Shown here piece after piece: positions 13,619 to 36,762 of a stretch of DNA of 36,762 bases. Source of the stretch: an uncultured Bacillota bacterium (GTDB lineage: Bacteria > Bacillota_I > Bacilli_A > Erysipelotrichales > Coprobacillaceae); the NCBI GenBank assembly GCA_949290865.1, contig CASETM010000058.1:1-36762 (forward strand), read 5' to 3'. Positions within the stretch are counted from its first letter, which is position 1. Each line of letters starts with the position of its first letter. The position numbers and the translations under genes are program-made. A model generated the notes under the pieces. That model was not told where the DNA came from and did no database searches. It saw only the letters and a list, made by a program, of their open reading frames with translations.

Positions 13619-13646
13619 AAAAAGATCACTTACGAGTGATCTTTTT
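13619..13646. terminator. Bidirectional terminator of the YczE-like gene and polyamine operon
   Basis: AAAAAGATCACT, TACG, AGTGATCTTTTT: a 12-bp perfect stem with A and T runs at either end. It closes the polyamine operon on the minus strand. Confidence 0.92.
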
Positions 13647-14754
13647 AAGAAAGGCGATTTTTAAAATCGTCATACCCAAATTCTTTGACAAGTTCTATTT
13701 TATCATCGGTTTTTAAAACAATTGCTGGTAAGTTCATACCATTAAAAGTATTGTTTTTTACCATCGAATAGATCGCCATATCACAAAAATACAGCTGATC
13801 GCCAGGTTTTAAAGGCTGATCAAAAGAATAGTCACCAATAATATCTCCTGCCAGACAGGTTGGTCCCCCCAAGCGATAAGTCCAGGCTTTTTCCTGTGGC
13901 AAAGCACTGTTAATAATCAGCGGACGATAGGGCATTTCCAGAACATCAGGCATATGACAGGCTGCTGAAGTATCCACAATAGCAATATCCATACCGTTAT
14001 GGATAATATCCAAAACTGATGTAACCAGAAAACCAGCATTTAAAGCAACCGCTTCACCTGGTTCAAGATACACTTCAACTTGATATTTATCTTTAATTTC
14101 CTTAATGATTGCGATCAATGTTTCACGATCATAGTCATCTCTGGTGATATGATGACCACCACCAAAGTTTACCCACTTCATCTGATGAAGATAAGATCCA
14201 AATTTTTCTTCAACAGCACGAACTGTTGTTACCAGATCATCGCTATTTTGTTCACAAAGCGTATGAAAATGCAATCCTTCTATACCTTCCAGCTGTTCTG
14301 GATCAAACTGATCAATCGTAACACCCATTCTTGAAAAAGGTGCACAAGGATCATAAATAGCATGTCCCTGCTGTGTAGAACATTCCGGATTGATTCTTAT
14401 CCCACAGGAAACATGATATTTTTGCGCTAAAGATTTATATTTTTGCCATTGATTGAATGAATTAAAGACAACATGATCACAAATCTGCATGATCTGGTCT
14501 ATTTCATCATCACGATAAGCAGCACTGTAAACATGATTTTCCTTGCCCATTTCTTCTTTACCAAGACGAGCTTCAAACAAACCACTGGCTGTAGTTCCAT
14601 CAAGATACTGTCCCAGCAAAGGATAAATTCGATACATGGAAAAACATTTCTGAGCCAGCAGAATTTTACATCCTGACTGTTTTCTCACCTGAGCCAGTAT
14701 TTCCAAATTATGTTTGAGCAATTCGGTGTCAATTAAATAATAAGGTGTCTTCAT
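13645..14754 (-). CDS. nspC: Carboxynorspermidine/carboxyspermidine decarboxylase
   Basis: A 369-residue PLP enzyme of the alanine-racemase fold (group IV decarboxylases) that decarboxylates carboxyspermidine or carboxynorspermidine. PLP lysine is K36 in LLAQKCFSMY; GLHFHTLCE, NFGGGHHITR, YLEPGEA and the C-terminal CDMAIYSMVKNNTFNG are family hallmarks. The length is normal. The ATG overlaps the stop codon of the upstream dehydrogenase as TAATG; the pair forms the aspartate-semialdehyde route to spermidine from putrescine. It is the last gene of the six-gene operon. Whether the product is spermidine or norspermidine depends on the diamine; with putrescine made by the same operon, spermidine is expected. 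Confidence 0.93.
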   Translation of the reverse strand: MKTPYYLIDTELLKHNLEILAQVRKQSGCKILLAQKCFSMYRIYPLLGQYLDGTTASGLFEARLGKEEMGKENHVYSAAYRDDEIDQIMQICDHVVFNSFNQWQKYKSLAQKYHVSCGIRINPECSTQQGHAIYDPCAPFSRMGVTIDQFDPEQLEGIEGLHFHTLCEQNSDDLVTTVRAVEEKFGSYLHQMKWVNFGGGHHITRDDYDRETLIAIIKEIKDKYQVEVYLEPGEAVALNAGFLVTSVLDIIHNGMDIAIVDTSAACHMPDVLEMPYRPLIINSALPQEKAWTYRLGGPTCLAGDIIGDYSFDQPLKPGDQLYFCDMAIYSMVKNNTFNGMNLPAIVLKTDDKIELVKEFGYDDFKNRLS

Positions 14755-15956
14755 TAGTCTACCAGTACCGGATCAAAGTCTTCATGCCATGGCAGTCCAT
14801 ATTGATTCAAAGCATCCATAAATGGATCAGGATCAAATTCTTCAACATTGTAAACACCTGGTTTTTGCCATTTTCCCTGCAGCAGCAGCATCGTTGCAAT
14901 CATTGCGGGAACTCCAGTTGTATAGCTGACTGCCTGTGAACCCACTTCTTTATAACATTCCTGATGATCACAAACATTATATAAGTAATATTTTTTATAC
15001 TGTCCATCTTTTTTCCCTTGGAAAATGCAGCCAATATTCGTTTTTCCGACAGTACGAGGTCCCAGTGTTGCGGGATCAGGTAAAACAGCTTTTAAAAACT
15101 GCAGTGGGACGATCTTTTTTCCTTCAAATTCAATCGGCTCAATTGATGTCATTCCAACATTTTCTAGACATTTCAGATGTGTCAGATAACTTTGACCAAA
15201 AGTCATAAAGAAACGAATACGCTTGATTCCAGGTATATTGATACCTAGTGATTCCAGTTCTTCATGATGCAAAAGATACATATCTTTTTTACCAACTTCC
15301 GCAAAATCGTATTCTCTTTTGATTTCCATCGGTTTGGTTTCTACCCAATGACCATCTTCCCAATAGCTGCCATTGGCTGAGACTTCTCTGATATTGATTT
15401 CTGGATTGAAATTAGTCGCAAATGGATATCCGTGGTCACCACCATTACAGTCAAGAATATCGATGTAGTTAATTTCATCAAACTGATGTTTTAAGGCATA
15501 GGCACTGAAAACACCAGTAACACCCGGATCAAATCCAGCTCCCAAGATAGCCGTAATCCCAGCTTTTTCAAATCTTTCACGATAAGCCCATTGCCATGAA
15601 TATTCAAATTTGGCTGTATCTTCCGGTTCGTAGTTTGCTGTATCGATATAATGTGTTTTGGTTGCCAGACAAGCATCCATGATTGTCAGATCCTGATATG
15701 GCAGTGCCAGATTTAACACAACATCTGGCTGAAAATCATTGATCAATGCAATCAGTTCATCAACATTGTTGGCATCCACCTGCGCCGTATGAATGATTGT
15801 TTTGGTTTGTCCTTGAAGTTTTTCTTTTAACTGATCGCATTTGCTTTTTGTTCTTGAAGCAATCATGATTTCATCAAAAACATCGCTGTTTTGACAACAT
15901 TTATGGATGGCTACCGAAGCAACACCACCACATCCAATAATTAAAGTTTTACTCAT
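14754..15956 (-). CDS. Carboxy(nor)spermidine synthase (saccharopine dehydrogenase family)
   Basis: A 400-residue enzyme of the saccharopine dehydrogenase/Lys1 family that condenses aspartate semialdehyde with putrescine and reduces the imine with NAD(P)H to carboxyspermidine. It has the Rossmann motif GCGGVAS (8-14), the family segment ILGAGFDPGVTGVFSAYA (about 136-153), DCNGGDHG and the late SYTTGVPA. It is followed directly by nspC with a TAATG overlap and preceded by speB with no gap (TAA then ATG), which supports the carboxyspermidine assignment over lysine metabolism. Confidence 0.92.
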   Translation of the reverse strand: MSKTLIIGCGGVASVAIHKCCQNSDVFDEIMIASRTKSKCDQLKEKLQGQTKTIIHTAQVDANNVDELIALINDFQPDVVLNLALPYQDLTIMDACLATKTHYIDTANYEPEDTAKFEYSWQWAYRERFEKAGITAILGAGFDPGVTGVFSAYALKHQFDEINYIDILDCNGGDHGYPFATNFNPEINIREVSANGSYWEDGHWVETKPMEIKREYDFAEVGKKDMYLLHHEELESLGINIPGIKRIRFFMTFGQSYLTHLKCLENVGMTSIEPIEFEGKKIVPLQFLKAVLPDPATLGPRTVGKTNIGCIFQGKKDGQYKKYYLYNVCDHQECYKEVGSQAVSYTTGVPAMIATMLLLQGKWQKPGVYNVEEFDPDPFMDALNQYGLPWHEDFDPVLVD

Positions 15957-16820
15957 TTACTTTTCCTCCCCTTTATTGATTGCGAGTAATAATTCTCTTA
16001 AGACCTTACAGGCCAAAGCTGTCGATGCACCGCTTTGATCATAAATCGGTGAGAGCTCATTAAGATCCATGGCAACAATATTGAGCTGACTGACTGCCAT
16101 GATAGCCTGTAACAGTTCATTAAAGCTGACACCACCAGCTTCTGGTGTTCCGGTTCCAGGAAAAACACTGGGATCCAGAACATCCAGATCAATTGTCAAA
16201 TAAACCGGATAGCCCTGACACTGAACAATTGCATCTGCTAAACCGGTAAAATCAAATTTATGCAGAATCGTATGATCATTTGCCCATAAAAATTCAGCGC
16301 GTTCACCACTGCGAATGCCAAACTGATAGATTCTATCATCACCAATGAGATCATGAACACGACGGATCACCGAAGCATGAGAAAGCTTTTCTCCTAAATA
16401 CTGATCTCTTAAATCGGTATGAGCATCAAAATGAATAACGCGCAGATCTGGATATTTTTTGACAGCTGCTTCAACTGCTCCTAATGTCACCAGATGTTCC
16501 CCACCGACCATACATGGTCTTTTATTCGCTGATAAAACTGCTTGCGTCATTTCCTGAATCTGATCAAGAGCTTTACGAGGATTGCCAAAAGGCAGTTCCA
16601 GGTCCCCGGCATCAAATACCGCTATATCTTCCAGATCACGGTCCTGATAAGGACTGTAGGTTTCCAGTCCAAATGATTCTTTACGCATCGTAGCCATCGC
16701 AAAACGAGTGCCAGGACGATAAGATGTCGTACTGTCCATCCCCGCTCCAAAAACAACACATTCTGCTTCAGCAAATGATGCATCTAATCCTATAAAAGTT
16801 TCTATATTTTTATTCCACAT
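15957..16820 (-). CDS. speB: Agmatinase
   Basis: A 287-residue ureohydrolase that splits agmatine into putrescine and urea with two manganese ions. Metal ligands are all present: H109 in GGEH, D132, H134 and D136 in FDAHTD, D211 and D213 in IDLDVLDP. The GAGMDSTTSYRPGTR segment near the N-terminus is typical of agmatinases. The start overlaps the end of speE by about 11 nt and has GGAG ten bases upstream. In this operon it links arginine decarboxylase to both spermidine-forming branches. Cytosolic. Confidence 0.94.
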   Translation of the reverse strand: MWNKNIETFIGLDASFAEAECVVFGAGMDSTTSYRPGTRFAMATMRKESFGLETYSPYQDRDLEDIAVFDAGDLELPFGNPRKALDQIQEMTQAVLSANKRPCMVGGEHLVTLGAVEAAVKKYPDLRVIHFDAHTDLRDQYLGEKLSHASVIRRVHDLIGDDRIYQFGIRSGERAEFLWANDHTILHKFDFTGLADAIVQCQGYPVYLTIDLDVLDPSVFPGTGTPEAGGVSFNELLQAIMAVSQLNIVAMDLNELSPIYDQSGASTALACKVLRELLLAINKGEEK

Positions 16821-17661
16821 CTCTAAGCAGCTCCTCTACATAAGTTGGCAGGGCAAAAGCCCCAACATGAATTCCCGTATTATAGTATCTGGTCTTCAAC
16901 TGGCGAACATTCCATTTGGTTTTCTGAAAATCCTTGACTGGATGATATTTCTTTGAAGCAAAACCAAACAGCCAGTGCCCAGAAGGATATGTCGGAATAT
17001 GTGCCTGATAGACACGGGATATCGGAAAGCTTTCCACGATCCGCTTATGCGCTCTTTGCATGGCCACAGCATCCTCATGATAAAATGGGCTTTCATGCTG
17101 ATTAACCATGATTCCTGTTTCATTCAGGGCTTTATAGCAGTTTCCATAGAATTCTTTGGTAAACAGACCTTCTCCCGGCCCAAACGGATCGGTCGAATCA
17201 ACAATGATCAGATCATATTCATTTTCTTTGGTACGAACAAACTTTAAGCCATCCTGATAATAGATATGCACTCTGGGATCATCTAAGCTGCAGGCTGTTG
17301 TCGGCAGATATTTCTTGCTGACTTCAACAACCAGTTCATCGATTTCAACCATATCGATGCTTTCAATCGTTTCATAGCGGCATAACTCTCTAATCACACC
17401 ACCATCTCCGGCACCAATGACCAGAACTTTTTTGACATGAGGATGAACCGCCATTGGCACATGAACGATCATTTCATGATAGATAAATTCATCTTTTTCT
17501 GTCAGCATCATATAGCCATCCAACGCCAGAAAACGTCCAAATTCCTGCGAATCAAAAATATCGATCCGTTGAAATTCACTATGGCCGCTAAACAGCTGAC
17601 GATCAACCTTGATAGAAAACTTAACGCCTTTTGTATGTCGTTCACTAAACCACAGTTCCAT
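16810..17661 (-). CDS. speE: Spermidine synthase (polyamine aminopropyltransferase)
   Basis: A 283-residue aminopropyltransferase that transfers aminopropyl from decarboxylated SAM to putrescine, releasing methylthioadenosine. The nucleotide-binding motif GAGDGG (83-88), the EIDELV segment and DSTDPFGP with catalytic D155 are present, and HEMIVHVPM binds the substrate region. I chose the ATG at 17661 because GGAGG is nine bases upstream; ATG 6 nt earlier sits only three bases from it. The start is inside the end of speA (17-nt overlap). The presence of this enzyme together with the carboxyspermidine pair in one operon is unusual. Confidence 0.94.
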   Translation of the reverse strand: MELWFSERHTKGVKFSIKVDRQLFSGHSEFQRIDIFDSQEFGRFLALDGYMMLTEKDEFIYHEMIVHVPMAVHPHVKKVLVIGAGDGGVIRELCRYETIESIDMVEIDELVVEVSKKYLPTTACSLDDPRVHIYYQDGLKFVRTKENEYDLIIVDSTDPFGPGEGLFTKEFYGNCYKALNETGIMVNQHESPFYHEDAVAMQRAHKRIVESFPISRVYQAHIPTYPSGHWLFGFASKKYHPVKDFQKTKWNVRQLKTRYYNTGIHVGAFALPTYVEELLRDVE

Positions 17662-19117
17662 CTTCATCTTCCTCCCTGATAACATTTAAATATTCAATCT
17701 TCATATCTTCGGGTCCTGTCATAAAACACCCTTTTTTCTTTGCATAGTCAATATATGTTAGTATTTCATCAGTAATTTTTTCCCCTGGTGCTAAAATTGG
17801 TATTCCCGGAGGATAGCACATCACAAATTCTCCACAGATACGGTTAGCTGTATCTGCTAACGGCAACGATTCTTTTTCACTGTAAAATGCCTGCTGTGGT
17901 GACATCATCACCTGAGGACTGATATATTCCTGATCCAACATGCCACTGCGATCTTTTTTAAACCTGCGGCGGATTTCTGACAACGCTCCTACCAGACGTT
18001 CAATATTGGCTTCACTGTCTCCAACAGAAATATAAGCCAGAATATTGCCAATATCACCGAATTCAATCTGAATGCCATATTCATCTCTAAGCAAATCATA
18101 AACCTCGATTCCTGCCAGACCAATATCCAGTGTAAAGATTGAAAGTTTGGTAATATCAAAATCATAGACACTGTCGCCATTGATCAATTCCCGGCTGTAG
18201 GCATAATAATCACCGATCAGATTGATTTCTTCACGGGCATAATGAGCCAGTCGACAGACACGGTCAAAAATCTGCTGGCCATGCAAAGCCAGGTTTTTGC
18301 GTGACATGTCCAAGCTGGATAAAAGCAGATAAGAACCACTGGTCGTTTGCGTCAAGTTAATGATCTGACGCACATAATCTTCGTTAATATCTGGCCCAGT
18401 CAGCAAAAAAGAACTCTGAGTCAGACTGCCTCCAGATTTATGCATACTGACACTGGCCATATCAGCTCCTGCTGCCATCGCTGATAAAGGCAGATCATCA
18501 CTGAAATAAAAATGCGTACCATGAGCTTCATCTACCAGTGCTTTCATGCCATAAGCATGTGCCAAATCAACAATTGCCTTTAAATTGGAACAAATTCCAT
18601 AATAAGTGGGATTATTAATCAGGATCGCCTTGGCATCAGGATTTTCTTTCATCGCCGCTTCGACCTGACTAACCGACATTCCCAGAGAAATTCCCAGTCT
18701 AGCATCAACATCAGGATTGACATAAACTGGAATCGCTCCTGTTAGAATCATCGCATTGATGGCACTGCGATGAACATTACGAGGCATGATGAGCTTTTCT
18801 CCAGCTTTGACACTGGCCATGATCATGCTTTGAACTGCTGATGTCGTTCCTCCCACCATAAAAAAAGCGTGACTGGCACCAAAAGCATCAGCCGCCAGTT
18901 CTTCAGCTTCTTTGATTACTGAAACAGGATGACACAGATTATCTAAAGGTTTCATTGAATTAACATCGACACTCATACATTGTGTCCCTAAAAAAGCTGT
19001 CAGTTCTGGATTGCCTTTGCCATGTTTATGTCCTGGTACATCAAAAGGAACAATGCGTTCTTTTTTCAAATTGACCAGTGCTTCATAAATTGGCATTCTC
19101 TTTTGATCAAGTTTCAT
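17645..19117 (-). CDS. speA: Arginine decarboxylase (Orn/Lys/Arg decarboxylase family)
   Basis: A 490-residue PLP-dependent decarboxylase of the fold-type I Orn/Lys/Arg group (short form without the N-terminal wing domain). The FDVPGHKHG motif is at 25-33, the PLP lysine is K227 in SVSMHKSGGSLTQ and the aspartate of the cofactor pocket lies in VDEAHG. Substrate cannot be read from the motif alone, but the agmatinase gene two places downstream makes arginine the likely substrate, giving agmatine. I chose the ATG at 19117, with GGAGG seven bases upstream; an ATG 6 nt earlier touches that RBS. Eleven bases separate it from the speD stop codon. Confidence 0.88.
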   Translation of the reverse strand: MKLDQKRMPIYEALVNLKKERIVPFDVPGHKHGKGNPELTAFLGTQCMSVDVNSMKPLDNLCHPVSVIKEAEELAADAFGASHAFFMVGGTTSAVQSMIMASVKAGEKLIMPRNVHRSAINAMILTGAIPVYVNPDVDARLGISLGMSVSQVEAAMKENPDAKAILINNPTYYGICSNLKAIVDLAHAYGMKALVDEAHGTHFYFSDDLPLSAMAAGADMASVSMHKSGGSLTQSSFLLTGPDINEDYVRQIINLTQTTSGSYLLLSSLDMSRKNLALHGQQIFDRVCRLAHYAREEINLIGDYYAYSRELINGDSVYDFDITKLSIFTLDIGLAGIEVYDLLRDEYGIQIEFGDIGNILAYISVGDSEANIERLVGALSEIRRRFKKDRSGMLDQEYISPQVMMSPQQAFYSEKESLPLADTANRICGEFVMCYPPGIPILAPGEKITDEILTYIDYAKKKGCFMTGPEDMKIEYLNVIREEDEDGTVV

Positions 19118-19128
19118 GGTCATCCTCC

Positions 19129-19914
19129 TTAAAAAATATTGCTGCCACTGTAAATTTCAATCATTTCCTGACGTAGATTATTGGTAATCTCCAGACGAAT
19201 CTTAGGGGGCAGTTCATAAATGTCAGTTTTAAAGAGATAGTTCTGCAGATCGATTTCTTTGATCAGCATTCTGGTATGAAAAAGATTAGCCTGATAGACA
19301 TTGATATCGGTCGCATCATATTTCAACTTAATCAGCGGATCGATAAATTCCTGAATCGAAACCATATGATTATCCATAAACAGTTTTTTCCCTTTAATAT
19401 CACGGGTAAATCCTCGTACCCGATAATCCATTGTAATAATATCTGAATCAAAACAGCGAATCAGAAAATCCAGTGTTGATAACGGCGATATTTCACCACA
19501 GGTTGAAACATCAATATCAACCCGAAAAGTCGCAATACTGGTTTCAGGATGAAATTCCGGATAAGTATGAACCGTGATATGACTTTTATCGAGATGTCCT
19601 AAAATAACCCGATCATCAATTTCTTCCATCTGTCCTTGTCTTTTTTTCAGCATATCTTCTTCTGCTAAAAGCATCGTTACGCTGGCTCCCTGCGGATCAT
19701 AATCCTGTTTTGATACATTGAGAACATGAGCCCCGATCATCTTGGCAACTTCATATAAAATATCCGTCAGTCGTTTAGAATTATACTGTTCATCAATATA
19801 GGCAATGTAATCTCTCTGTTCACGCTGTGTCTTGGCATAGCAAACATCGTAGATATTAAAACTTAAAGATTTGGTCAAATTGTTAAATCCATATAATTTC
19901 AGTTTCTGATTCAT
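19129..19914 (-). CDS. speD: S-adenosylmethionine decarboxylase proenzyme (class 1, E. coli type)
   Basis: A 261-residue SAM decarboxylase proenzyme. It self-cleaves at the lysine-serine bond K110-S111 within DKSHITVHTYPE to give the pyruvoyl cofactor on the new alpha-chain; the length and spacing match the E. coli-type class rather than the short archaeal/Bacillus type. It supplies decarboxylated SAM to SpeE. Catalytic cysteine C139 is seen in VSTCGEISPL. It is the first gene of the polyamine operon and is preceded by a terminator hairpin and a long structured leader. RBS is GAGGGG upstream of the ATG. Confidence 0.94.
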   Translation of the reverse strand: MNQKLKLYGFNNLTKSLSFNIYDVCYAKTQREQRDYIAYIDEQYNSKRLTDILYEVAKMIGAHVLNVSKQDYDPQGASVTMLLAEEDMLKKRQGQMEEIDDRVILGHLDKSHITVHTYPEFHPETSIATFRVDIDVSTCGEISPLSTLDFLIRCFDSDIITMDYRVRGFTRDIKGKKLFMDNHMVSIQEFIDPLIKLKYDATDINVYQANLFHTRMLIKEIDLQNYLFKTDIYELPPKIRLEITNNLRQEMIEIYSGSNIF

Positions 19915-20256
19915 TTTCCTATCCCCTCTTTAACAAAAAAAATCAAGCAGGAAATTCCGCTTGATTTATATATCGACTTAAAAAGAACAATATTTGCCTT
20001 TTTTTTGACCATTCCTTAGCAAGAATTACCTTTAATACTCTTATTGATTTTTTCACAAGTGTGATGTGCCAGAAGCACACGGTTGTATAGTCACCAACTC
20101 AATGCCAGATCATGGCATCAACTTATAAAATTTGAACTTTCGTTCAATCAATAAGGCAACAAAGTTGCCGCTCGGCTTTGACCAGCTGTCCGTATGGCTA
20201 TAACTCATCAGAGTGGTCAATTTATTCTCGCAAAAAGAATAATCATTTTGCTCGAC
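19915..20256 (-). ncRNA. Structured 5' leader of the polyamine operon, candidate riboswitch
   Basis: The predicted transcript starts near 20256 and runs about 340 nt to speD. Helices read on the minus strand: GCAAAA/UUUUGC near its 5' end; UUGACCA (20214-20220) with UGGUCAA (20178-20184); GGCAAC-UUU-GUUGCC (20155-20169); then a 9-bp long-range helix UUAUUGAUU (20146-20154) with AAUCAAUAA (20041-20049). That helix encloses GAAC-GAAA-GUUC, AUGCCA-N5-UGGCAU (20102-20118) and GUGUGC-N5-GCACAU (about 20064-20080). A second UGGUCAA (20005-20011) could compete for UUGACCA. A terminator lies just before the RBS. I recall no Rfam class with this pattern; ligand unknown. Confidence 0.65.
19933..19966 (-). 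terminator. Terminator/attenuator in the speD leader
   Basis: On the minus strand AAATCAAGC and GCTTGATTT form a perfect 9-bp stem over a partly paired 10-nt loop, followed by a run of T. It ends about 20 nt before the speD ATG, between promoter and RBS, so it would stop transcription of the whole operon unless prevented. Confidence 0.88.
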
Positions 20257-20260
20257 TATG

Positions 20261-20289
20261 ATTATAAAACACAGTTTCACAAAAATCAA
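20261..20289 (-). promoter_or_regulatory. Promoter of the polyamine operon
   Basis: Minus-strand TTGATT (20284-20289), 17-nt spacer, TATAAT (20261-20266). It lies between the end of the MetC-GNAT gene and the leader RNA. Confidence 0.75.
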
Positions 20290-20326: not shown

Positions 20327-22030
20327 CTAAACTCCGGCATTCTTGAAACATTCTGTATCATCCCAAATCAGTTTTTGAGAATGGATGCGTGTCTGATCAA
20401 AAATATCAATAAAATCATGATCCCATCTGGCTCCTAAATGGCTATACAGATTTCGCGCATGATCATTACCAGAAACAACACAGATGCTCATTTTTAAATA
20501 TCTATGACTATAGGCAACATATCCAACCTTGCTGATCAGCCTGGTACCAATTCCCTGCCCTCTGGCTTTTTCACTAACATGCAGTGAATCCAGATAAAAA
20601 CAGTTTGGGAGCTGTTCATCTGGACGACAAGCCGCAAATCCCAGCAGTTCACCACCACAGCACGCAACAAAAATATGATGATGTTCATTATGAAGAAAGG
20701 TCTGCCATTTATTCATGACTTTTTCGATATCCAAATGCTGCAGATATTCGTCTGGAACAAGTCCCTGATATGTTTTCTGCCAGTTATAAACATATAGTGT
20801 TGCTATATCTTGAATGTCTGAATTTGTTGCACAACGTATTTCCATCTGCCAACCTCTATTCGGTTTAAGATAGGCATGATCCAGTGCCTGTTTGATATCT
20901 TTAATCAGCAGTTCTGGTTCCTCTAATCCAATATACATACGCATATGTCCAAAAGCAAGCCCTCTTTGCTGCAGTTCAAGTTCATTATTTCCTTTGTATA
21001 CTGGTAAAATCAGACTTTCAAATCCGCCCCAGCTGTAAGCTAAAGTAAAATGTTCAAGTCTGTCAGTAAATGTTTCAATAATTTTCGCATCCGCATCCTT
21101 TAAAACAATACCAAGCAGACTTCCCATGCCAGATAAATATTTTTCTGCCAGCTCTTTTTGCGTACTATCCCCACAAAGCGGATGATAAATCTTTTCAATT
21201 CTTTCATCATTCTGGAGAAACGCTATTACTTGTCTAACTGACTGATCTAAATATTTCATTCTCACTGGCAAGGTTCTTAATCCACGAATAGCTAGCCAGG
21301 CATTCATTGGTGACATTGTTGCACCAAGATAAGTGACACTAAAATCCCTGATTATCTGAATAACTGGATTTCTTGCGACAGCAATCCCACCAACCAGATC
21401 GCTATGTCCACCTATATATTTTGAACAGGAATGAATGACGACATCAATACCATGCTGCAAAGGTTTCTGTAACAATGGTGTTGCCCAGGTATTATCGATA
21501 ACCGTATATATATGTCTTTCTTTCGCTGTTTTGGCAATCCATTGCAAATCAAGCAGTTCAAACTTCTGTGATGAAGGACTTTCAAAATAAATCATTTTTG
21601 TATTGTCCTGCAGATACTGTAGAATTTCTGCTGTATTTTGAACATCTATCTTCGTACTCTCTACGCCGAATTTTTCTAAATATGAAATCAGTTTAACACT
21701 TGATCCATAAACCGTATTGACAATAAGAATATGATCGCCTTTTTTTACAAGACTTAAAATGGTTCCAGAAATAGCCCCCATACCAGAAGCAAAACTAATG
21801 GCATCATCGCCACCTTCCAGCTGGGCAATTTTCTGTTCTAGTAATGCAGTTGTTGGGTTTTGACCTCTGGTATATGTATAAGCAAACTGCCCACCTGCAT
21901 TAACTTCCAAATAATGTTGAAAATTTTTAAACTTAAATGACGATGTCTGTACTATTTCCGGGGAAATGGTCAAATAGTCGTTTCCCTCATCAGCATCCAA
22001 TGATAAACAGATATTATTTAAATCTTTCAT
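20327..22030 (-). CDS. MetC-like cystathionine lyase fused to GNAT acetyltransferase
   Basis: A 567-residue fusion. Residues 1-388 are a Cys/Met-metabolism PLP enzyme: YTYTRGQNPTT, PLP lysine K204 in SCSKYIGGHSD, and AYSWGGFESLI typical of MetC-type cystathionine beta-lyases. Residues 396-567 are a complete GNAT N-acetyltransferase with the acetyl-CoA loop RGQGIG (490-495). The start has GGAGGAG. The junction is short (about seven residues), and the GNAT part begins at an ATG (20845) with its own AGAGG seven bases upstream, so it may also be translated alone. Just before the junction TAA and TAG occur in one other frame. Either a real fusion or the result of an indel joining two genes. Confidence 0.85.
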   Translation of the reverse strand: MKDLNNICLSLDADEGNDYLTISPEIVQTSSFKFKNFQHYLEVNAGGQFAYTYTRGQNPTTALLEQKIAQLEGGDDAISFASGMGAISGTILSLVKKGDHILIVNTVYGSSVKLISYLEKFGVESTKIDVQNTAEILQYLQDNTKMIYFESPSSQKFELLDLQWIAKTAKERHIYTVIDNTWATPLLQKPLQHGIDVVIHSCSKYIGGHSDLVGGIAVARNPVIQIIRDFSVTYLGATMSPMNAWLAIRGLRTLPVRMKYLDQSVRQVIAFLQNDERIEKIYHPLCGDSTQKELAEKYLSGMGSLLGIVLKDADAKIIETFTDRLEHFTLAYSWGGFESLILPVYKGNNELELQQRGLAFGHMRMYIGLEEPELLIKDIKQALDHAYLKPNRGWQMEIRCATNSDIQDIATLYVYNWQKTYQGLVPDEYLQHLDIEKVMNKWQTFLHNEHHHIFVACCGGELLGFAACRPDEQLPNCFYLDSLHVSEKARGQGIGTRLISKVGYVAYSHRYLKMSICVVSGNDHARNLYSHLGARWDHDFIDIFDQTRIHSQKLIWDDTECFKNAGV

Positions 22031-36625: not shown

Positions 36626-36762
36626 TGGTGGAGCTGAGGGGAATCGAACCCCTGTCCAAAAGTCATTCCTCCAAAGCGTCTACAGTTTAGTCCATTGAAT
36701 GATTTAACCTGGCTACAATCAATGAACAATTTTACACCAGGCGATTCTTTCAATTTTCGTGA
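36626..36762 (-). ncRNA. ssrA: tmRNA (ssrA), 3' part, runs off the window
   Basis: The minus strand ends with GGACAGGGGTTCGATTCCCC and then TCAGCTCCACCA, the conserved tRNA-like 3' end (T-arm, acceptor and encoded CCA) of tmRNA, which rescues stalled ribosomes. TGTAGACGCTT and the preceding pseudoknot region are also tmRNA-like. The tag-peptide frame and 5' half lie beyond the window's right edge, so the tag cannot be read. Confidence 0.95.

Follow-up and report, generated by a model that had tools for sequence, protein, structure and literature searches.

The speD-speA-speE-speB-CASDH-nspC operon of the window (the whole 36,762-nt stretch of DNA analysed here) is preceded on the minus strand by a leader (20254..19931) that combines a promoter and an intrinsic terminator with numerous helices, and we hold with high confidence that this leader contains a real, conserved cis-regulatory RNA. 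The RNA is likely to be a riboswitch, and, judging from the sequences and gene neighbourhoods compared here, it is probable that the complete statement holds, namely that a widespread Bacillota cis-regulatory RNA responds to a polyamine, for example spermidine, as a transcriptional ‘off’ riboswitch. We lean slightly towards regarding it as a new, widespread Bacillota class of polyamine-sensing riboswitch, in which D1 and D2 may be two sensing modules combined in one switch. One fragment, D1, is already known, whereas the element as a whole appears to be new, as do its architecture and mechanism. An earlier note on this DNA had proposed a structured, terminator-bearing leader of a polyamine operon, and this is borne out by both covariation and a conserved genomic association.

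The operon and its leader

The leader transcript is ~320 nt long and lies upstream of speD. The genes and the signals that flank the RNA are as follows.

20261..20289, minus strand: sigma-A-like promoter TTGATT-17 nt-TATAAT (−35 at 20289, −10 at 20261), predicted
19940..19967, minus strand: intrinsic terminator AAATCAAGCGG-AATTTC-CTGCTTGATTT followed by a U tract, from sequence inspection
19129..19914, minus strand: speD, S-adenosylmethionine decarboxylase (TIGR03331, 401 bits)
17645..19123, minus strand: speA-type Orn/Lys/Arg decarboxylase (PF01276)
16810..17685, minus strand: speE, polyamine aminopropyltransferase (NF002010, TIGR00417 above cut-off)
15957..16820, minus strand: speB, agmatinase (TIGR01230 above cut-off)
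14754..15956, minus strand: carboxyspermidine dehydrogenase (CASDH) candidate (PF16653/PF03435)
13645..14754, minus strand: nspC candidate, carboxy(nor)spermidine decarboxylase (PF00278)

For CASDH, the Paenibacillus relative matches a carboxynorspermidine synthase model, below that model's cut-off, and for nspC the relative L121 matches TIGR01047 above cut-off. The transcript is expected to start near 20254 on the minus strand. Of the promoter claimed in the earlier note, the TTGATT-17-TATAAT sequence is present and in related speD leaders its TATAAT recurs at the same distance 5′ of the RNA, but the consensus alone is no better than chance (9 matches in 2 kb versus 7.9 expected). The terminator lies 25 nt upstream of the speD ATG (19914), and the leader fold is more stable than that of dinucleotide shuffles (z = −6.28, with 0 of 100 shuffles as stable). 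Inspection by eye found no conserved upstream ORF between the promoter and D1, and the RNA is present as a single copy in its own genome. Elsewhere in the window, 20327-22030 (minus strand) holds one 567-aa ORF with a Cys/Met-metabolism PLP enzyme at residues ~4-386 and a C-terminal part that by eye resembles a GNAT acetyltransferase, and 36626-36762 (minus strand) is a partial tmRNA gene cut off at the window end.

Domains D1 and D2 and the outer helix

The RNA itself can be divided into the following elements, listed in 5′ to 3′ order of the transcript.

20224..20245, minus strand: outer helix P_out, 5′ strand, GCGAGAAU (20231-20224) plus extension UGAUUAUUC (20245-20237); duplex permutations
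20172..20219, minus strand: domain D1, the RF02440 match; cmscan and covariation
20219-20215 with 20183-20179, minus strand: D1 helix P1; covariation
20214-20211 with 20206-20203, minus strand: D1 helix P2; covariation
20199-20197 with 20186-20184, minus strand: D1 helix P3; covariation
20192-20190 with 20175-20173, minus strand: D1 pseudoknot CGG with CCG; changed on both sides in 2 sequences
20039..20176, minus strand: domain D2, the match of covariance model R1; R1 match and covariation
20155..20169, minus strand: hairpin P0, GGCAAC-UUU-GUUGCC; covariation
20154-20146 (UUAUUGAUU) with 20049-20041 (AAUCAAUAA), minus strand: D2 long-range helix Pa, 9 bp; exact pairing
20145-20142 with 20137-20134, minus strand: D2 hairpin Pb, GAAC-GAAA-GUUC with a GAAA loop; covariation
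20130-20121 with 20060-20051, minus strand: D2 helix Pc with side hairpins; nearly invariant
20006..20026, minus strand: P_out, 3′ strand, AUUCUUGC (20026-20019) and GAAUGGUCA (20014-20006); duplex permutations and MFE fold

Several of these had been named in the earlier note: its 9-bp helix (20154-20146 with 20049-20041) is exact, its GAAA hairpin at 20145-20134 is present, and so are the UUGACCA (20220-20214) and UGGUCAA (20184-20178) with which it closed the 5′ domain. It had also called the leader unassigned, a description to be dropped on a hit to a known Rfam family, and such a hit was found. With cmscan, RF02440 (SpF59_sRNA, “ldcC RNA”) matches 20219-20172 at 40.9 bits (gathering score 37.2), and the match is full-length, taking model positions 1-54 onto 48 nt of the leader. 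RF02440 is a 54-position Rfam family from Streptococcus, of type ‘Gene; sRNA’ with no function given, and models one domain (D1) only.

In D1 the three helices P1, P2 and P3 meet in a junction, and the CGG of the P3 loop pairs with CCG in the 3′ tail. In an alignment of 78 sequences, 92.2% of cells are paired and 8 of the 15 pairs change on both sides; there are 88 double-change cells, versus 27 ± 5 in shuffles and 18-44 in slid controls, the latter a comparison that favours the structure as it was derived from the same sequences (all covariation alignments were made with MAFFT). Support for the pseudoknot is thin, because its both-side changes are limited to two closely related sequences. RF02440 fails to detect a variant of D1 (GACC...GCUGACGGUCAGCAGGUC...GCCGA) that lies ~60-100 nt 5′ of the D2 match in L147-L150, where P1 and the CGG-CCG pseudoknot are kept and P3 is longer.

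For D2 and P_out we compared leaders outside Streptococcus and Lactococcus. The covariance model R1 scores the window copy, one of its own 63 training sequences, at 91.1 bits (E 9e-15). Across these 63 sequences 90.5% of D2 cells are paired, with 71 double-change cells versus 19 ± 4 in shuffles and 11-44 in slid controls, which are biased towards the structure in the same way as for D1. Most of the covariation in the D2 region sits in P0, where all 6 pairs change on both sides (63 leaders), and in Pb; Pa and Pc give little evidence either way because they are nearly invariant. The covariation that the earlier note had looked for in homologous leaders is thus found in its GAAA hairpin (Pb), while its 9-bp helix (Pa) is too uniform to be informative. 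No Rfam family was found for the D2 region in the 20 relatives' loci scanned, nor for the remaining ~180 nt here. RNAalifold alone on the gappy D2 alignment returns 9 pairs only, with different partners for the 3′ strands of Pa and Pc. In alignment A2 it prefers CUUGU (Pc 3′, columns 213-217) with AUAAG (the end of Pa, columns 229-233), and this pairing inside D2 may represent a further alternative state.

P_out joins the segment directly 5′ of D1 to a segment downstream of Pa, and in the window it stands where relatives usually have a D3 hairpin (GAGU...ACUC). Its pairings among leaders include GCAAGAAU with AUUCUUGC, GCAAAUAUU with AAUAUUUGC and UGUACAGAAAUU with GAUUUCUGUACA, and many distinct compatible states are found across leaders. 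In 62 leaders the own duplex averages −10.56 kcal/mol versus −7.41 kcal/mol for swapped strands, and none of 20000 permutations did as well; the signal persists at <80% identity (~22 cluster representatives, p ≤ 0.0002) and at <75% (9 representatives, p ~0.03). The MFE fold of the window forms P_out unaided. The extension of P_out in the window, UGAUUAUUC with GAAUGGUCA, holds a second UGGUCAA (20011-20005), which the earlier note had reported correctly and had proposed to pull the 5′ arm of P1 away. This repeat is not conserved even in L109, from the other species of the genus that has the RNA; L109 has GAUUAUUC with GAAUGAUC at the extension, a compatible change. The repeat is therefore better read as part of P_out than as a competitor of P1, and the switch of the first reading is replaced.

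Expression platform

A strict terminator scan over the 72 leaders with both D1 and D2 found a terminator in 39. In these leaders the Pc 3′ strand, often with the neighbouring hairpin strand included, complements the terminator 5′ arm and its flank (for example CGCAUCAACUUGUAAAAUGG with UAUUUUACAGGCGGUGCA in L044), so that Pc and the antiterminator are mutually exclusive; as predicted from the pairing, this exclusion is how “off” riboswitches usually work. In a set of 34 non-redundant leaders, the antiterminator duplex with a leader's own arm averages −13.94 kcal/mol, versus −10.54 kcal/mol for swapped and −7.84 ± 0.36 kcal/mol for shuffled arms, and none of 20000 permutations equals the own duplexes. 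The signal is kept in ~11 representatives at <80% identity (p below 0.0002). When folded up to the terminator 5′ arm, 18 of the 39 leaders pair most of that arm with the Pc region, and the remaining leaders pair the arm elsewhere or keep Pc; energy models alone therefore do not settle the switch.

The window copy has D1, D2, P_out and the terminator, but its antiterminator complementarity is weak (−4.3 kcal/mol, and −6.3 kcal/mol in L109), and folding and comparing the two gave no alternative antiterminator common to both. Either the switch uses other partners in the window and L109, or it is eroded in their genus. A mutually exclusive expression platform, as expected of a riboswitch, is thus found for the family (34 leaders) and not in the window copy.

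As the comparison of leaders shows, P_out encloses the pseudoknotted D1, hairpin P0 and the branched core D2 (Pa, Pb and Pc). In the mechanism that we propose, at high polyamine concentration the ligand would bind and lock D2, Pc would form and block the antiterminator, and the terminator could then form and turn the operon off. At low polyamine concentration the Pc 3′ strand would instead capture the terminator arm and transcription would continue.

Gene context, candidate ligand and known RNAs

Of 295 genomes searched within the order, 36 have an RF02440 match; one genome from a different family in the class has the element as well, and so does Lactococcus lactis, which served as a control. 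The genes behind 31 loci include speD, nspC, potA, PotD-like genes and secreted lipoproteins. We also fetched 80 speD loci, mostly from Clostridia, independently by protein similarity; simple patterns, the counts of which are approximate, detect at least one of D1 and D2 no more than 520 nt from the start in 65 of the 80, and both in 51. Among the speD loci sampled, no element was found at that of Sporolactobacillus or at most selenomonad speD genes. A replicon of Paenibacillus cellulosilyticus carries a full copy ahead of CASDH-nspC. In viral contigs, one match inside an IS66-like element (L120) was set aside as a chance match; the viral contigs gave no D2 match and phages none.

The two domains do not always occur together. 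The R1 search found D2 copies without D1 before speD (L129 and L137) and before speA (L132, L133, L134 and L136), and elsewhere D1 is present and D2 is too diverged for detection (e.g. L094, L102-L104 and L107). As D1 is missing from some speD and speA copies, D2 is the likelier sensor-actuator core, and D1 would be an accessory module or a second sensor. At L101:1501-3050 an RF02440 element, with no D2 detected there, precedes an Lnt-like carbon-nitrogen hydrolase gene.

As in riboswitches, a structured RNA with covariation lies in the 5′ leaders of one pathway's genes. We infer both the ligand and the direction of switching: speD, speA, nspC, CASDH, potA and the PotD-like genes share the supply of polyamines, which points to spermidine or a related polyamine. 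It is rather unlikely that the riboswitch responds to some other pathway metabolite (SAM, decarboxylated SAM, methylthioadenosine, arginine, agmatine or putrescine). In most operons speD comes first, and SAM and decarboxylated SAM are its substrate and product, but the RNA also precedes nspC alone and the potA and potD-like import genes, to which sensing of SAM, decarboxylated SAM or arginine is unsuited; SAM and arginine, both put forward in the earlier note, are less likely on these grounds, and putrescine or agmatine is possible.

Attenuation by proteins is common in Bacillota, and since the RNA's ligand is a candidate only, an RNA-binding protein rather than a small molecule might bind the leader and drive attenuation. 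We consider this improbable, as proteins typically recognise much smaller targets than this element, which spans ~230 nt and has eight or more helices, a pseudoknot and long invariant stretches, and an informal look noticed no gene at all loci that could encode such a protein. Similarly doubtful is that polyamines, which bind RNA non-selectively (PMC10853860), merely stabilise RNA folding in general and have no specific aptamer here: the unpaired stretches CGGACAGC, GUGAAA and AAGAGUAGUAAAAG are invariant in distant genera and therefore suggest a specific site.

A polyamine riboswitch of the kind we favour has a precedent in the spermidine riboswitch of Trichococcus ilyis ldcC, a transcriptional off switch that is a variant of SAM-I, with the SAM-I four-way junction and a mutually exclusive terminator and antiterminator (PMC10853860). 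The leader resembles it in lying upstream of polyamine genes and in the exclusive terminator/antiterminator layout, but its architecture differs from the SAM-I four-way junction and no SAM-family or clan match was found in the leader by Rfam, even at E ≤ 1. Membership was rejected on the absent SAM-I aptamer fold, and T-box membership on the absence of a T-box motif or Rfam match in the leader, in agreement with the earlier note, which had seen neither T-box nor S-box hallmarks. The odc1 and potE motifs are candidate cis-elements near polyamine genes (PMC8632094). Unlike the leader, odc1 contains an upstream ORF and has its 5′ end base-paired to a loop (PMC8632094), and speF is an alphaproteobacterial Rfam-type motif; an Rfam scan of the window matched none of odc1, potE and speF. 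Only one spermidine riboswitch class, narrowly distributed, is convincingly supported, and its discoverers expect further classes (PMC10853860). In its gene associations, size, conservation and expression platform the RNA is what one would expect of a further class. If our reading is true, it would be a second, far commoner one, present in many bacteria of gut and soil, with gut anaerobes, Paenibacillus, lactococci and pneumococcus among its hosts.

In pneumococcus the RF02440 element is known as F59, SN20, srn235 and Spd_sr49 (PMC3395615, PMC12323649, PMC2887815). In S. pneumoniae it forms part of a transcript of 318-327 nt from between SP0915 and SP0916, for which a promoter and a terminator have been predicted (PMC2887815, PMC12323649), and SP_0916 (speA) is an arginine decarboxylase gene (PMC7531197). 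The likeness to the window extends from the D1 match and the place upstream of this decarboxylase gene to the position of D1, with the F59 core 32 nt from the transcript 5′ end and D1 in the window at ~35 nt. The RF02440 model and, within the partial coverage of our literature search, the publications differ in having no D2, P_out, antiterminator or spe/nsp/pot distribution, and the same search found no description of RF02440 as a cis-regulator of polyamine genes. The pneumococcal authors took the element as an sRNA, and one of them proposed an FMN switch on the basis of a motif in common (PMC3395615, PMC12323649, PMC2887815). It is very improbable that the terminated leader works chiefly as a trans-acting small RNA, despite its annotation as sRNA F59/SN20/srn235 and its listing with a lung phenotype. 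Where it occurs it forms the 5′ leader of polyamine or related genes, the coevolution of its terminator arm with the rest of the leader argues for control in cis, and an insertion in F59 could be polar on SP_0916. The earlier note's proposal of a new riboswitch or a large sRNA stands as far as riboswitch-like features across leaders go, but a fragment had already been catalogued as the sRNA RF02440.

Deletion of the pneumococcal polyamine importer potABCD lowered all major polyamines and raised speA 16.9-fold and speE 14.4-fold by qRT-PCR, a rise not shown by RNA-Seq in the same study (PMC8540371). The polyamine-off direction that we propose agrees with this, because speA and speE rise when loss of the importer lowers polyamines. 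On the polyamine riboswitch reading, the pneumococcal ‘small RNA’ would probably be a feedback sensor, which could explain why speA and speE were reported to rise on loss of polyamine import.

Secreted hydrolase-like lipoproteins are also led by the RNA; these are C39-like (L084, L105, L106, L108, L110, L111 and L147-L150), M28 (L082 and L097) and C26 of the gamma-glutamyl hydrolase type (L144). Most C39 leaders have no detectable terminator and would therefore need another output. The secreted hydrolases led by the RNA may release polyamines from conjugates.
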